Shown in pieces: positions 32,165 to 40,375 of a stretch of DNA of 64,000 nt. Source of the stretch: Verrucomicrobiia bacterium (lineage in GTDB: Bacteria; Verrucomicrobiota; Verrucomicrobiia; Verrucomicrobiales; DEV007); contig JAUIAH010000002.1 in assembly GCA_030425385.1 (NCBI GenBank), positions 310,001 through 374,000 of the forward strand, written 5' to 3'. The notes beneath the pieces were generated by a model that had not been told where the DNA came from, did not search any database, and saw only the letters and a list, made by a program, of their open reading frames with translations. Every line of letters starts with the position of its first letter. Positions within the stretch are counted from its first letter, which is position 1. Both the position numbers and the translations under genes were made by a program.

Positions 32165-32773
32165 ATGGCACACACGCTTCCCGACCTTCCCTTCGCACAC
32201 GACGCCCTCGAACCTCACATCGATGCCCGCACGATGGAAATCCATCACAGCAAGCATCATAACACTTACGTCACCAGTCTGAATGCCGCGCTAGAAGGGC
32301 AGGATGCCCTCGCAGCCAAGTCTGTCGACGCGTTGATCAGTGATCTCGACGCCGTGCCCGAAGACATCCGCGGCGCCGTGCGCAATCACGGTGGCGGCCA
32401 CTCCAACCACTCCCTGTTCTGGAGCATCCTCGGACCCAACAAAGGCGGCACCCCCAGCGGTGATCTCGCGGCCGCCATCGATAGCACCTTCGGGTCCTTT
32501 GATGCCTTCAAAGAAGCCTTTGCCAAGGCAGCCGCCACTCGTTTCGGATCCGGCTGGGCCTGGCTCAGCGTCAAGGACGGCGCTCTCGTCGTCAGTTCCA
32601 CACCCAACCAGGATAGTCCCATCATGGAAGGGGCCACGCCGATCCTCGGAATCGACGTGTGGGAGCACGCTTACTACCTCAACTATCAGAATCGTCGCCC
32701 TGACTACATCGCAGCCTTCTGGAATGTGGTCAATTGGGACGCCGTGGCCGAGCGCTACGCCGCCGCCAAGTAA
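32165..32773 (+). CDS. sodA: Superoxide dismutase, Mn-type
   Basis: 202 residues. Converts superoxide to H2O2 and O2. Metal ligands are His27 ([12 protein letters not shown]), His82 ([11 protein letters not shown]), and Asp/His in [20 protein letters not shown]. The GGHxNH sequence and the Gln in [10 protein letters not shown] are the residues that mark manganese rather than iron enzymes; a cambialistic enzyme cannot be excluded. Followed by a strong terminator hairpin, so it is transcribed as a short unit. No signal peptide, so cytoplasmic. Confidence 0.96.
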
Positions 32774-32796
32774 GGCAACGAATCCACTTTCGTTGA

Positions 32797-32826
32797 AGAA
32801 GGGCGACCTCCTCAGGTCGCCCTTCT
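32797..32826 (+). terminator. Intrinsic terminator after sodA
   Basis: Perfect 13-bp stem AGAAGGGCGACCT (32797-32809) with AGGTCGCCCTTCT (32814-32826) around a CCTC loop, 24 bases after the sodA stop. The run of Ts after it is short (CTTT). It separates sodA from the CotH gene. Confidence 0.85.
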
Positions 32827-32918
32827 CTTTGCCATCTCCCCTAACATTCCCCCCTTTCGCATTCCCTCGCTTTCCCCTTGGCAATCCCTTCCCCTTCCAT
32901 CAGTCTCAGCCGTTACCC

Positions 32919-35900
32919 ATGAAGAAGCCCCTCTTTGCCCTTGCCCTCGTTCTCTGGAGTGTCGCGTGTCTGCACGCTCAGGGAACACCCGTCATTTCCG
33001 AGTTCATGGCCTCCAATCTCACCGCGATCCTTGATGATGACGACGATGCTTCCGACTGGATTGAGATCTACAATCCTAGCGGAACCACCTACGCGCTGGG
33101 AGGGCATTTCCTCACCGATGACCGGCGTAATCTTCGCAAATGGATGATTCCCTCCAATCTCAACGTACCCGCCAATGGCTACGCCCTCGTCTTTGCCTCC
33201 GGGAAGGATCGCTCTGGCATCTTCGCCACCACCTATCACAGCAACTTTGAACTCTCGACGGATGGGGACTACCTCGCCCTGGTGGCGAGTGATGGGGAAA
33301 CGATCTTGAGCGAATTTGCCGAGCGCTATCCGAAGCAACGCACGGGACTTTCCTACGGGATTCGCAACAATGAAAGTGGCGGCAATACGTTAGGCTACTT
33401 TGAAACACCCACACCGAAAGCAGCCAACGGCGAAGGACGCGATGATCTGCCACCTCAAGTGGCTGACACGAAGTTTAGTGTCGGGCGTGGTTTCTTCACG
33501 GAACCATTCACCGTCGAAATCACCACCGCTACCGAGGACGCTCTCATCTACTACAGCACTGACGGCAGCGATCCAGGACCAGGTTCCGTCTTTCAACCAG
33601 GCAAGCAGTACACGGAGCCCGTCGCCATTGAGGGCACGACCATTCTGCGCGCACGAGCCTACAAGGAAGGCCTTGAGCCCACAAACATTGACACGCATAC
33701 CTATCTCTTCATCGCCGATGTGCTGCAACAGTCCGACGACCAACCAGGGCTGCCCGATCGATGGAATGGTCAGCGCGCCGACTACGGCATGAGTCCTGAC
33801 ATTGTCGAAAGTCCTGACTATCAGGATCGCATCCACGATGCCTTCGTGGCTCTTCCGACGCTTTCCATCGTCACAGATAGCGATCATCTCTGGGCCTCCG
33901 ATGGGCTCTATCTGAATACCACCCGTCGACCTGCCAGCGGTGAGGGGGCGGATTTCGCCTATGAATTCGAGGTGTCGGCAGAACTCATCCACCCCGATGG
34001 GAAGGACGGCTTTCAAGTCCACGCCGGCCTCCGCGCGCAAGGTGGCGCCAGTCGCAACGCGGATCGATCCTCGAAGCATGCGCTCAGCCTCCGTTTCCGT
34101 CGTGTCTACGGCACGGGTCGGCTCGACTATCCCGTTATTCCCAGCAGTCCCGTCCAAAGTTACAATTCGCTTCACCTCCGCGCGCGCTACAACAACAGTT
34201 GGATCCACAGCAACAGCGGCCAGCGTGATCGGGCGCAATACATCCGCGATCAATGGGCGCGCGATTCCATGATCGAGATGGGCACACCCTCGGCAGGCCA
34301 TGGCGACTACGCGCACCTCTATCTGAACGGTCTCTATTGGGGCATCTATGTGATGCAAGAGCGCCTGGATTCCTCACACTATGCTAGCTACTACGGCGGG
34401 CGCGATGATGAGATCGATGCCGTCAACGGCGGTCGCGCCACGGATGGCGATCTCAATGCTTACAATGCTATGCGCGCCATCGCACGCGCCAAGGACTGGG
34501 AAGGTCTGCAAAGCACGCTGGACGTCGACAACTACATCGACTGGCATATTATCCAACGCTTCGCCAGCAATCGTGATTGGAAGAATGATGGCAATTGGAA
34601 AGCGGCAGGAGGTGGCCCGGACAATCGCCCCTGGCGCTTCTATGCCTGGGATACCGAACGCATTCTCGAGGGATTGCGTGAGGGCGTGCCTGGGCCGTCT
34701 TCCGATCCCTCCATGATCTTCAACAGTTTGGATGATATGCCAGAGTTCGTGCGCCGCTTTGGTGATCGCTTGCATAAACATCTCTTCAACAGCGGTGCCC
34801 TCACCCCTGAACGCAACGTCGCGCGCTATCAGCGTCGCGCCATGGAACTCGATGTGGCCATCATCGCGGAAAGCGCGCGTTGGGGAGACAACCGGCGAGG
34901 CACCCCCTACGAGCGGGACGATGAATGGGTGGCGGAACGCGATCGCATCCTCAACGATTACTTTCCAGAGCGCACCGCCGAGGTGATCGATCAGTATCAG
35001 GACGCCGGTCTTTACCCCAAGACCCTGGGCGTCGACCTCAACCAGTTCGGAGGCCGCGTGCCCACCGGTTTCGAACTGACACTTTCGTCCAAAGGCACCT
35101 CGGTCTTCAATCCTGGGAAGATCTACTACACCACGGATGGGAGCGATCCCATCGGCCTGAACGATGCGGTGAGTGCCGCGGCCACCGAGTATGCCACGCC
35201 CATTGCCCTGACAGAATCGCTCACTTTCAAGGCACGTGTACGCTCCACGAGCGGCGAGTGGAGCGCGCTCACAGAGACCTTCTTTGCCGTCGACACGAAC
35301 ACGCCATCCGCTGAGACCGTGACCGTTTCCGAGATCATGTATCATCCTGGCCCCCCGACCGCTGAGGAATCAGCCGCGGGCCACGTCAGCAGCGATGATT
35401 TCGAATTCATTGAGTTGCACAATGTCAGTGACAGCACCCTCGATCTCGCTGGAAGCCGGTTTGACCGTGGAATCGATTTCCACTTTCTGCCGGGTCACGA
35501 CGCCATCCTGGCACCCGGTGCCACCCTCCTACTCGTCCGCGATGCGGCCGCCTTTCGCTATCGCTACGGTGATACGATTCCTGTCCATGGCGTCTACTCG
35601 GGCGCGCTCGCCAACGGAGGCGAAACCCTCCAACTCACCGGCGAAGATGGCAACGCGATCCATGCGATTGACTACAGTGACCGTGGCAACTGGCCCCGCA
35701 CCGCCGATGGAGAGGGTTTCTCCATGGTATTGCAAGGAGCCGATCCTGACAAAGCCACGTCCTGGCAAGCAAGCGTCGTCTACGGAGGATCTCCGGGACA
35801 GATTGAAGACGTTGATACCCCGCAAGTGGTGATCCATGAAATCCTCACAAACTCCGAGCCACCTGCTGTCGATGCCGTCGAACTCCACAATCTCGGCTCA

Positions 35901-37184
35901 GAACCGATCGACGTCAGTGGCTGGTTTCTCACCGATGATCCTAACACGCCTTCGAAATATGCCATCGCAGCGGGAACCCTCATCGCGCCCGGCGGTTACC
36001 TGGTCATCGAAGAGGATAATGACAGCAATCCTGACAATAATGCTGATTTGCCAGCCAACTACTTTGGCCAAGCCTTCGGTCTCAGCTCGCGCGGGGATGC
36101 CATTCACCTCTTCGCTGCCAGTGATGGAAATCTTAGCGGCTACAGTGACGGGTTCTCCTTTGGCGCGGCCGCGCAAGGCGTCACCTTTGGACGCGTGACC
36201 GATTCCCAAGGACGGGTCGCCTACCCACCCCTCGCGGTGCCCACCCTGGGCAGTGCCAACGCCGCCCCCGCCATCGGCCCCATCGTCTTCTCGGAGATCA
36301 TGTATCACTCTGACAAAAGCCTCGGCGAGATGACTGACGCAGGCGAATACGTGGAACTCGCCAATCGCTCGGAGACAAGCATCCTGCTCGACGGATGGGA
36401 GATCGACGGGCTCGGGTTCGCCTTTCCGTCAGAAATCACCATCGCCCCAGGAGAAGCCATTCTCATCACGCGCCTGGCTGCGGCCGACTTTCGCACCCTC
36501 TACACCGTCCCGGAGACCGTTCAGATCTTGGGCCCCGCAGGTGGGCGGCTCGATAATGACGGCGAGCGCCTCACGCTCACGCGTCCAGGCGAAACCTACA
36601 CCACCGAAGCCGGCGCCGAACGCACCACGCAAGTCATCGTCGACTCCGTGCGCTACAACGACGCCTCCCCATGGCCGGAAAGCGCCGACGGCATGGGACG
36701 TTCGCTCGAACGCACCGCGCTCGATGCCTACGGCGATGAAGTCGGGAACTGGGCGGCGGGTAACGAGGCTCAGGGCACACCCGGCATCATTGGCAATGCC
36801 GCCCCCACCGAAGACGGCTTCACGGATTGGGTGAGCACGTATTTCACCGAAGACGAACGCGCGAATCCCGGCATCACGGGCCCAGCATCGGATCCTGATG
36901 CCGATGCCCTCCCCAACCTGGTCGAATACGCCCTCGGCACGGATCCCTCCGTTTCCCAGCCCTCGCCTCTTACCGTCCATGCAGATGCCGATGGATTCAT
37001 GGTCCACTACCCGATGAATAGCGCGGCCACAGATCTCCGTCTACGTCCCGAAATCTCCGACGACCTGCAATCCTGGCAAGACGCCACGGCCCTTGGCACT
37101 CCAATCGATGCCGCGCCTCACAGTGGCTGGCGGTTTCCCTTGGCACTCGGTGGACGCTACCTGCGCATCCACATCGAGCGCTGA
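32919..37184 (+). CDS. Giant secreted CotH-kinase and lamin-tail domain protein
   Basis: 1421 residues, signal peptide MKKPLFALALVLWSVACLHA. Domains in order: lamin-tail domain (about 23-150, VISEFMASNLTAILDDD), chitobiase/hexosaminidase C-terminal-like domain (about 165-250, ALIYYSTDGSDPGPG), CotH-type kinase-like domain (about 290-660; LYLNGLYWGIYVMQERLD, GNWKAAGGGPDNRPWRFYAWD with the conserved Asp), a second hexosaminidase-like domain (about 690-770), three more lamin-tail domains (about 780-1280; SEIMYHPGPP, IHEILTNSEPP, SEIMYHSDKS) and a C-terminal Asp-rich module (DPDADALPNLVEYALGTDP). CotH kinases phosphorylate proteins in spore formers; the role of these secreted bacterial giants is unknown. 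A pyrimidine-rich tract (about 32830-32900) precedes the start. The upstream extension of this frame through sodA is accidental. Confidence 0.88.
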   Translation: MKKPLFALALVLWSVACLHAQGTPVISEFMASNLTAILDDDDDASDWIEIYNPSGTTYALGGHFLTDDRRNLRKWMIPSNLNVPANGYALVFASGKDRSGIFATTYHSNFELSTDGDYLALVASDGETILSEFAERYPKQRTGLSYGIRNNESGGNTLGYFETPTPKAANGEGRDDLPPQVADTKFSVGRGFFTEPFTVEITTATEDALIYYSTDGSDPGPGSVFQPGKQYTEPVAIEGTTILRARAYKEGLEPTNIDTHTYLFIADVLQQSDDQPGLPDRWNGQRADYGMSPDIVESPDYQDRIHDAFVALPTLSIVTDSDHLWASDGLYLNTTRRPASGEGADFAYEFEVSAELIHPDGKDGFQVHAGLRAQGGASRNADRSSKHALSLRFRRVYGTGRLDYPVIPSSPVQSYNSLHLRARYNNSWIHSNSGQRDRAQYIRDQWARDSMIEMGTPSAGHGDYAHLYLNGLYWGIYVMQERLDSSHYASYYGGRDDEIDAVNGGRATDGDLNAYNAMRAIARAKDWEGLQSTLDVDNYIDWHIIQRFASNRDWKNDGNWKAAGGGPDNRPWRFYAWDTERILEGLREGVPGPSSDPSMIFNSLDDMPEFVRRFGDRLHKHLFNSGALTPERNVARYQRRAMELDVAIIAESARWGDNRRGTPYERDDEWVAERDRILNDYFPERTAEVIDQYQDAGLYPKTLGVDLNQFGGRVPTGFELTLSSKGTSVFNPGKIYYTTDGSDPIGLNDAVSAAATEYATPIALTESLTFKARVRSTSGEWSALTETFFAVDTNTPSAETVTVSEIMYHPGPPTAEESAAGHVSSDDFEFIELHNVSDSTLDLAGSRFDRGIDFHFLPGHDAILAPGATLLLVRDAAAFRYRYGDTIPVHGVYSGALANGGETLQLTGEDGNAIHAIDYSDRGNWPRTADGEGFSMVLQGADPDKATSWQASVVYGGSPGQIEDVDTPQVVIHEILTNSEPPAVDAVELHNLGSEPIDVSGWFLTDDPNTPSKYAIAAGTLIAPGGYLVIEEDNDSNPDNNADLPANYFGQAFGLSSRGDAIHLFAASDGNLSGYSDGFSFGAAAQGVTFGRVTDSQGRVAYPPLAVPTLGSANAAPAIGPIVFSEIMYHSDKSLGEMTDAGEYVELANRSETSILLDGWEIDGLGFAFPSEITIAPGEAILITRLAAADFRTLYTVPETVQILGPAGGRLDNDGERLTLTRPGETYTTEAGAERTTQVIVDSVRYNDASPWPESADGMGRSLERTALDAYGDEVGNWAAGNEAQGTPGIIGNAAPTEDGFTDWVSTYFTEDERANPGITGPASDPDADALPNLVEYALGTDPSVSQPSPLTVHADADGFMVHYPMNSAATDLRLRPEISDDLQSWQDATALGTPIDAAPHSGWRFPLALGGRYLRIHIER

Positions 37185-37281
37185 GCCAGCGCTGTCCACG
37201 CACGTTCCAACCATCGGGAGCCGCCCAGTGGGTGCTGCGGACTCGGCCCATTCTCACTCGTAATAATTGATTCTTGTTTTT

Positions 37282-37360
37282 ATGGTATTTCTTTTGAGAT
37301 AGTTCCAACTCGTGGCAATGGTGACTCACCATTGAAATCTTTCTCAATTAGAAATACCAT
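37282..37360 (+). promoter_or_regulatory. Structured leader that can pair over the start codon of the sugar transferase
   Basis: ATGGTATTTCT (37282-37292) is the exact reverse complement of AGAAATACCAT (37350-37360), and the pairing continues inward with TTGAGA (37294-37299) to TCTCAA (37342-37347). The outer arm contains two of the three bases of the start codon at 37359. Inside the loop is a 15-base palindrome ATGGTGA-C-TCACCAT (37318-37332). As RNA this gives a long hairpin enclosing the ribosome-binding region; as DNA it could be an operator with repeated ATGGT/ACCAT half-sites. Which of the two is inference. The surrounding 100 bases are clearly more AT-rich than the genes. Confidence 0.55.
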
Positions 37361-38015
37361 GAACATCTCCTCCCCAAAGCCTGAAAGCCTCGCGAACCCT
37401 CTGCTCACGGATCCCCTTTCGGATGACGCCAATGCCTATCTCAGCGAGCATGGCCTCTCCAAGCGTCTTCTCGACATCGCCGGATCGATTGTTGGCCTCA
37501 TCCTCGCCGCCCCCCTCATGGTGGTCTTTGGCTTGCTAATCTACCGCGAATCCCCTGGCAACATCATCTACAAGCAGCGCCGGGTAGGCCGCGATGGCAA
37601 CGAATTCACCATCTATAAGCTCCGCAGCATGAAACTCGACTCCGAGGTCAACGGAGCGGGATGGACCGTGGAGAATGATCCTCGTTGCCTCCAAGTCGGC
37701 AAGTTCATCCGCTCATGGAACATCGACGAGGTGCCTCAGTTCTGGAACGTGCTCAAAGGAGACATGAGCCTGGTAGGACCACGCCCTGAGCGGCCCGAAC
37801 ACATCGAGCGTCTCTGTGAAGAGATCCCTGGATGGGAGAAGCGCCTCGCAGTGAAGCCAGGGCTGACAGGATGGGCACAAGTGAATGGATGGCGCGGCGA
37901 CACCGATCTCAACGAGCGGGTGCGCCACGACACGGATTACATCAAACGCGGCAACTTGCTCTTTGATCTCGTCATCATGGCCCGCACGCTGGTCAACAAA
38001 GAGAACGCATACTAA
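37359..38015 (+). CDS. Undecaprenyl-phosphate sugar phosphotransferase (bacterial sugar transferase)
   Basis: 218 residues. Inner-membrane enzyme that transfers a sugar-1-phosphate to undecaprenyl phosphate, the first step of an exopolysaccharide or O-antigen repeat unit. The N-terminal membrane helix (DIAGSIVGLILAAPLMVVFG) is followed by the core motifs YKQRRVGRDGNEFTIYKLRS, SWNIDEVPQFWNVLKGDMS, VGPRPERPEHIE and KPGLTGWAQVNGWRGDT. It lacks the N-terminal four-helix/CoA-like part of WbaP-type enzymes, so it is the short PglC-like form. No other polysaccharide genes are directly next to it. The ATG at 37359 is chosen; a TTG nine codons upstream would lie inside the leader structure. Confidence 0.9.
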   Translation: MNISSPKPESLANPLLTDPLSDDANAYLSEHGLSKRLLDIAGSIVGLILAAPLMVVFGLLIYRESPGNIIYKQRRVGRDGNEFTIYKLRSMKLDSEVNGAGWTVENDPRCLQVGKFIRSWNIDEVPQFWNVLKGDMSLVGPRPERPEHIERLCEEIPGWEKRLAVKPGLTGWAQVNGWRGDTDLNERVRHDTDYIKRGNLLFDLVIMARTLVNKENAY

Positions 38016-38090
38016 CACACACTTTGCGCCATCTGTGAGTGACCTGGGGAGGTGCTCGCAGCTGGTGCAGTCGAAGAAAGAGCAGCAGAA

Positions 38091-38120
38091 GACCCCTACT
38101 GGATACGTCCGGTAGGGGTC
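38091..38120 (+). terminator. Intrinsic terminator between sugar transferase and Gfo/Idh gene
   Basis: Stem GACCCCTAC (38091-38099) with GTAGGGGTC (38112-38120), continued through a T-G pair and GGA/TCC around a TACG loop, about 13 pairs. It is followed by GTTCTGTTT on the plus strand. It lies 75 bases after the sugar transferase stop and overlaps the last codons of the convergent gene, so it could serve both. Confidence 0.8.
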
Positions 38121-39376: not shown

Positions 39377-39772
39377 CTAGGCCACGTCGATGACTCGTGG
39401 CTTGTCCGCTTCTTTCAGCGGCAAGCCGATATCGAGAACGCCGTCTTCCACTTTGGCCGTGATGCGTTCGGGATCGATCTTGGCATTGAGCCGAAGGCGC
39501 AACCGATAATCTCCCTCTGGCAACTCTCGAGAGCGCGCTTGCCACCCTTCAGGGGCGGCATCTTCTCGTTTTGCTGTAATCGTTAGGACTTCTTCGGCCA
39601 GTGACAGGGTCACTCCGGATTTCCCGGCGCCCGGGACGTAGACCTTCACTTGATACCCATGATCGTCCTCACGCGCACGGTAACGGGGTTTGAGGAACCG
39701 TTCTTCGGTGGCAGCGACCGCTTTCTCATTGGCGCAGGTCAAGGTGGTGTCTTTGTCAGTAGTGCAGTTCAT
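39377..39772 (-). CDS. Hsp20/alpha-crystallin small heat shock protein (short form)
   Basis: 131 residues. ATP-independent holdase that binds unfolding proteins. The alpha-crystallin domain runs from about residue 35 to the end: HGYQVKVYVPGAGKSGVTLS, LTITAKRED, then YRLRLRLNAKIDPERITAKV and DGVLDIGLPL (the G-V-L motif). The N-terminal arm is short, with two Cys near the start, and there is no C-terminal I-x-I tail, so it may form smaller assemblies than typical Hsp20. A good Shine-Dalgarno sequence (GGAAAGAAG) stands just before the ATG. Second gene of the Hsp20 pair. Confidence 0.88.
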   Translation of the reverse strand: MNCTTDKDTTLTCANEKAVAATEERFLKPRYRAREDDHGYQVKVYVPGAGKSGVTLSLAEEVLTITAKREDAAPEGWQARSRELPEGDYRLRLRLNAKIDPERITAKVEDGVLDIGLPLKEADKPRVIDVA

Positions 39773-39833
39773 GCTTCTTTCCTTTCTAAATGATGATTGA
39801 TGGTAGTTGATGCGTTAGGTTAGCAGTCGCTTG

Positions 39834-40277
39834 TTAGGCGATTTCAATGGTGCGCGGCTTCAGTGTTGGCGCTTTGCCCACGGTCACTGTGAGCACACCA
39901 TCGGTGAGCTTTGCGGTGACTGATTCGGGATCGACGCCATCAGGGAGGGCGACGCGGCGACTCGCGCGAGCGACGAGAGCTTCGTCTTCCTCGCCTTGTT
40001 TCTCCTCACGCTCATAGCTGACGAGCAGCTCGCCCGATGGTTCCCAGCTGACTCGAACGTCCTTCTTGGCGATCCCCGGCAGATGGAACCGAAGCGCGTA
40101 ATGCTCGTCGTCTTCGAAGAGATCACAGGCAAGCCGCGAATCGTCTCCCACCAGATCTCGGAAGCGATGCCCGAGGAAGCGGGAGAAAGGCTCGAAGTCC
40201 GTGAAAGGCTCCCGGAACCAGCCGTTGAGTTCGTTCAAGGTGTGCGTCAGTGGATGATGGTAATGGATTGGTTTCAT
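39834..40277 (-). CDS. Hsp20/alpha-crystallin small heat shock protein
   Basis: 147 residues. Molecular chaperone of the Hsp20 family. The N-terminal arm contains TLNELNGWFREPFTDFEPF, and the alpha-crystallin domain (about 45-147) has HYALRFHLPGIAKKDVRVSW, ELLVSYERE, RRVALPDGVDPESVTAKLTD and GVLTVTVGKA. First gene of a two-gene minus-strand unit that ends at the terminator 39298-39327. An in-frame extension of 22 codons upstream exists, but it starts almost at the probable -10 box, so the ATG at 40277 is preferred. Confidence 0.9.
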   Translation of the reverse strand: MKPIHYHHPLTHTLNELNGWFREPFTDFEPFSRFLGHRFRDLVGDDSRLACDLFEDDEHYALRFHLPGIAKKDVRVSWEPSGELLVSYEREEKQGEEDEALVARASRRVALPDGVDPESVTAKLTDGVLTVTVGKAPTLKPRTIEIA

Positions 40278-40341
40278 GTGTTTAAAGTTTGGAATTTGCC
40301 TTAGGGTATATGCAGCCACCATGCCAAGCTTATCCATTTCC

Positions 40342-40375
40342 ACTTAATTCCCTTATTATAAACGCATTAAGTCAA
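40342..40375 (-). promoter_or_regulatory. Promoter region with inverted repeat upstream of the Hsp20 pair
   Basis: On the minus strand a perfect -10 box TATAAT (40355-40360) lies between the arms of an inverted repeat, ACTTAAT (40342-40348) and ATTAAGT (40366-40372). A TTGACT sequence (40370-40375) is present but only 9 bases from the -10 box, too close for a normal -35. The arrangement fits an operator covering a promoter. It does not match the CIRCE (HrcA) or HAIR (HspR) consensus as I know them. Confidence 0.4.

Follow-up and report, generated by a model that had tools for sequence, protein, structure and literature searches.

A lineage-specific inverted repeat over the start codon of a verrucomicrobial sugar transferase gene: a candidate constitutive damper of translation

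The start codon of a stand-alone sugar transferase gene lies within the 3' arm of a long nested inverted repeat, whose predicted hairpin is more stable than expected by chance and is lacking in the related leaders. The chances appear about even that this is a lineage-specific inverted repeat at one start site, acting as a constitutive damper or stabiliser and not as a tuned or conserved switch; the same even chances apply to the assignment of the A+T-rich stretch at 37250-37358 as the promoter and untranslated leader of the transferase gene. If the hairpin does keep the start closed, it would be a natural case of strong translational damping gained by one inverted-repeat event, and the damped enzyme would be a sugar transferase that commits the cell to a polysaccharide. 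The hairpin opens no new class of regulator.

The locus and the architecture of the hairpin

The window, i.e. the whole analysed stretch of 64,000 nucleotides, corresponds to positions 310001-374000 of contig C6 in a genome of 8.0 Mb (G000). It was compared with other Verrucomicrobiales assemblies, among them three of the same genus (G001, G002 and G003; n = 4 with G000). The leader is located between a gene with LTD and CotH domains, which ends at 37184, and the sugar transferase gene, which starts at 37359. The hairpin region has a G+C content of 31-39% and lies in a much more G+C-rich neighbourhood. The upstream frame (32340-37184) is large and comprises four Lamin Tail Domain stretches as well as Fn3-associated, chitobiase C-terminal-type and CotH domains; since it begins within a superoxide dismutase gene, its true start must be further downstream. 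The features of the leader and the gene are as follows, with all stems and arms as given by the fold.

37251..37258, + strand: TTCTCACT box, possible -35 region, the counterpart of TTCTCAAT in G001-G003
37272..37277, + strand: position of the -10 hexamer in the alignment of the genus leaders, here a degenerate TCTTGT
37279..37302, + strand: 5' arm of the hairpin, with the predicted transcript start just before or inside its beginning
37279-37292 with 37350-37363, + strand: outer stem, 14 pairs including one G-U
37294-37299 with 37342-37347, + strand: middle stem, 6 pairs
37301-37302 with 37339-37340, + strand: inner stem, 2 pairs
37312-37313 with 37337-37338, + strand: two additional pairs
37316-37323 with 37327-37334, + strand: apical stem, 8 pairs
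37316..37334, + strand: palindrome CAATGGTGA-C-TCACCATTG with perfect 9-base arms, which forms the apical stem
37339..37363, + strand: 3' arm of the hairpin, over the start codon
37359..38015, + strand: stand-alone bacterial sugar transferase of the polyprenyl-phosphate sugar-1-phosphate transferase type, 218 aa, PF02397

The exact 11-base inverted repeat at 37282-37292 and 37350-37360, from which the first-pass annotation started, is present in the sequence. Its extension to a stem of about 17 pairs described real pairing but understated it, since the fold consists of nested stems of 14, 6 and 2 pairs plus the apical stem. Likewise, the palindrome in the loop is perfect as described, but it spans 19 bases with 9-base arms instead of 15. 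Only two bases of the ATG had been placed in the 3' arm, whereas the full-length fold pairs all three (37359-37361). Watson-Crick pairs make up 30 of the 32 pairs in the predicted stem, and the apical loop is ACU.

The hairpin has a minimum free energy of -33 kcal/mol. When 37260-37400 was folded against shuffled sequences, as had been proposed, none of 200 shuffles was as stable (z -3.45), and the same was true for none of 500 in the case of 37260-37389 (z -4.37). For background statistics we used a 464 kb sample of the same contig, in which the hairpin ranks first among 732 A+T-rich stretches of 110 bases (both strands counted). Exact 11-base inverted repeats with spacers of at most 90 bases occur 28 times in this sample, compared to 7-21 times in Markov sequence. 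The exact 11-base repeat alone is therefore close to chance, and the remarkable part is the complete nested structure, which exceeds chance. The other structured A+T-rich stretches of the sample did not reveal a class of leader hairpins, since the majority of those inspected lie across predicted coding frames. No second copy and no mobile repeat was detected in the own genome or in 75 genomes of the family, among which the element is unique to G000.

The gene encodes a stand-alone sugar transferase. Residues 35-212 match Bac_transf (PF02397) with 216.7 bits, above the curated cutoff of 27. The NCBIfam matches to EPS sugar transferases, with TIGR03025 as the best one, all remain below their cutoffs because the N-terminal half is absent and only the catalytic half is matched. 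In the alignment, the start codon of the relatives falls on the ATG at 37359, in an invariant column.

Promoter, predicted transcript start and access to the initiation region

The leaders of the four genus genomes share a promoter footprint. TTCTCA and TTTTTAT are invariant in their alignment, and TTCTCAAT precedes TTTTTAT in all three other genomes of the genus; the combination TTCTCAAT-N(8-28)-TTTTTAT occurs once per genome in G001-G003, only at the transferase gene. The counterparts of the degenerate -10 hexamer of the window are TCTAAT in G001 and TATAAT in G002 and G003, and the distance from the -10 hexamer to the ATG is nearly constant (88, 88, 89 and 87 bases in the four genomes). Two genomes outside the genus possess TATAAT with much shorter leaders. 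From this footprint, the transcript is predicted to start at about 37284, or at about 37274 if AATAAT at 37262-37267 is used as a nearby alternative -10 hexamer. A scan with consensus promoters found no promoter-like site at the -10 position of the window and, since TCTTGT is a poor hexamer, the real start could lie elsewhere. As the predicted start is upstream of 37300, the mRNA should carry the hairpin.

The mRNA would thus have its 5' end at the edge of the 5' arm or slightly within it, and the resulting 5'-terminal hairpin would end at the start codon itself and leave the initiation region poorly accessible. The predicted transcript from 37284 to 37389 still forms the stem (-28.2 kcal/mol, z -4.0, none of 500 shuffles as stable). 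In computations on isolated RNA, opening the region from -20 to +15 costs 16.0 kcal/mol with a start at 37274 or 11.3 kcal/mol with a start at 37284, compared to 8.2 in G003, 4.4 in G001, 2.3 in G002, 4.9 in G016 and 4.4 kcal/mol in G013. With a transcript start downstream of about 37300, the predicted cost drops to 4.5 kcal/mol. These values predict that the initiation region has lost accessibility in this species specifically. Translation would be expected to proceed at a constitutively low rate, and the mRNA might possibly be longer-lived, its 5' end being in a stem. Of the earlier proposal that the leader masks translation initiation, the masking itself is thus consistent with the strong hairpin over the start region and with a predicted opening cost of 11-16 against 2-8 kcal/mol in five relatives; a conserved switch, a thermometer and an operator with a regulon were not borne out.

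Conservation and origin of the inverted repeat

Conservation of the switch was not found: the pairing is not kept in G001-G003 and they yield no consensus structure, an outcome of the kind that the first-pass annotation had itself named as refuting its proposal; these relatives are, however, distant, with 67-77% protein identity. RNAalifold detected no common pairs (0) in the four genus leaders. When the structure of the window is imposed on their alignment, 62.7% of the pair cells are paired, and five pairs are changed on both sides compared to a shuffled mean of 3.3, in a set of four diverged sequences, which gave no usable covariation. A fold kept despite sequence change might go unnoticed among these four leaders, which give no positive support for it. 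The leaders of the genus relatives form other, weaker hairpins with z-values of -1.3 to -1.4 each. That of G003 also has its 3' arm immediately before the ATG, and the opening cost there is intermediate.

The hairpin is probably a recent local change in the lineage of the window, which the relatives are too distant to date. It would most likely stem from a local event, for instance template switching between short inverted matches during replication, and not from an inherited regulatory element. Near-perfect inverted-repeat stems are known products of template switching (PMC8794818), and the likeness to such hairpins consists in a near-perfect Watson-Crick inverted repeat in one lineage; the near-pure Watson-Crick composition of the stem is what would be expected of a copied inverted repeat. 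By this analogy, a template-switch origin is plausible. Aligned arm by arm, neither arm fits the leaders of the relatives better than shuffled ones, in a comparison of distant relatives with no close outgroup.

Close orthologs of the transferase are present in 7 of the 75 family genomes (the own genome of the window counted), and their surroundings vary. The G001 and G002 copies are divergent from an adjoining sigma-54-type response regulator, which has no match in G000 at E ≤ 1e-100. The transferase frame contains an in-frame stop in both genomes (L033 in G001, L034 in G002) and in G002 it also appears to shift frame near the start; these are either decaying genes or assembly errors.

Alternative readings of the hairpin

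It is possible, even if we consider it unlikely, that the inverted repeat has no effect at all, i.e. that it arose neutrally by chance or mutation and that the gene is weakly expressed or started elsewhere. The frequency of exact 11-base inverted repeats in the contig is in line with this reading, and so are the stops in G001 and G002 and the frame change in G002, which suggest that constraint on the transferase gene may be weak. However, no other A+T-rich stretch of the sample is as extreme as the complete structure, which is placed precisely on the initiation site. The hairpin stands beside an apparently intact gene and could be under selection.

A selected RNA regulator, in which the initiation region stays closed until a protein, a small RNA, a metabolite or a translating ribosome opens the hairpin, appears rather improbable. 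It would account for the strong excess stability and the exact placement over the start region, and a leader hairpin of some kind is likewise predicted in each of the three genus relatives. However, these individual hairpins reach a z of only about -1.35, the genus has no common structure, the element is unique among the 75 family genomes, and no alternative state is predicted on warming. The latter also argues against an RNA thermometer, which had been suggested: such elements likewise have a stem over the translation start, but here the computed mean unpaired probability of positions -20 to -1 in the isolated RNA is 0.16 at 4 °C, 0.17 at 37 °C and 0.24 at 60 °C, so that the start region stays closed from 4 to 60 °C. 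A described riboswitch or other cis-regulatory RNA is not indicated, since searches with Rfam gave no match in the window at the gathering threshold and, at a loose threshold, only chance matches outside the hairpin (E 0.43 and 2.7). A leader controlled by CsrA/RsmA is not indicated either, as the apical loop is ACU and the hairpin contains no ANGGA.

The closest functional parallel, by analogy, is the 5' UTR of psl in Pseudomonas aeruginosa, where a large imperfect stem-loop stabilised by RsmA closes the ribosome binding region; it pairs a Shine-Dalgarno sequence and requires RsmA and GG in the loop (PMC2984543). Both are large imperfect stem-loops in leaders of extracellular polysaccharide genes, and the one of the window would likewise close the ribosome binding region. 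In contrast, the hairpin of the window has a loop without GGA and pairs the start codon and the preceding A+T-rich bases, so that the defining RsmA features are absent. It is very unlikely that the leaders represent a new kind of verrucomicrobial leader RNA, one whose 5'-terminal hairpin changes quickly in sequence but retains its fold immediately in front of the start codon and controls translation of the committing sugar transferase.

The repeat might also act as DNA, as a site downstream of the promoter at which a dimeric repressor binds either the palindrome of 19 bases or the TTGAGA/TCTCAA pair; we regard such an operator, which might serve a single-target regulator, as improbable. The perfect palindrome does lie downstream of the promoter, its matches with two mismatches in G000 number 22 compared to 5 for the reversed control, and the adjacent ATTGAAATCTTTCTCAATTA is similar to a box that precedes a regulator gene in a second genus of the family. 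However, the palindrome is absent from the orthologous leaders, and the proposed genome search for similar sites pointed to no regulon: the exact inner 15-mer occurs once in the four genus genomes and has no further occurrence in G000 at one mismatch. The 20-base box beside the 3' arm that recurs in the other genus is possibly a chance match. There, the box CTCATAATTGAAATATTTCTCAATTATC is conserved with one copy per genome (L145, L146 and L147, near position 1501), lies about 165 bases ahead of a gene of the excisionase-like/response-regulator type and matches 23 of the 26 bases at 37325-37350 of the window.

That the repeat terminates transcription of the upstream gene is hardly credible: a consensus scan flags 37316-37334 followed by AAATCTTTCT as terminator-like, but the stem is A+T-rich without an uninterrupted T run, and termination here would block the transferase gene, whose aligned promoter is just upstream.

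The first-pass annotation had further stated that nothing else in the window has comparable pairing. This is not quite the case, since the region at 38021-38120 deviates more from its G+C-based expectation than the leader does. It lies between the transferase gene and a convergent Gfo/Idh/MocA gene and contains very stable, terminator-like hairpins, one of them with a 13-pair stem (38091-38120). Just past the oxidoreductase gene, two adjacent HSP20 genes are located on the minus strand (39377-40343).
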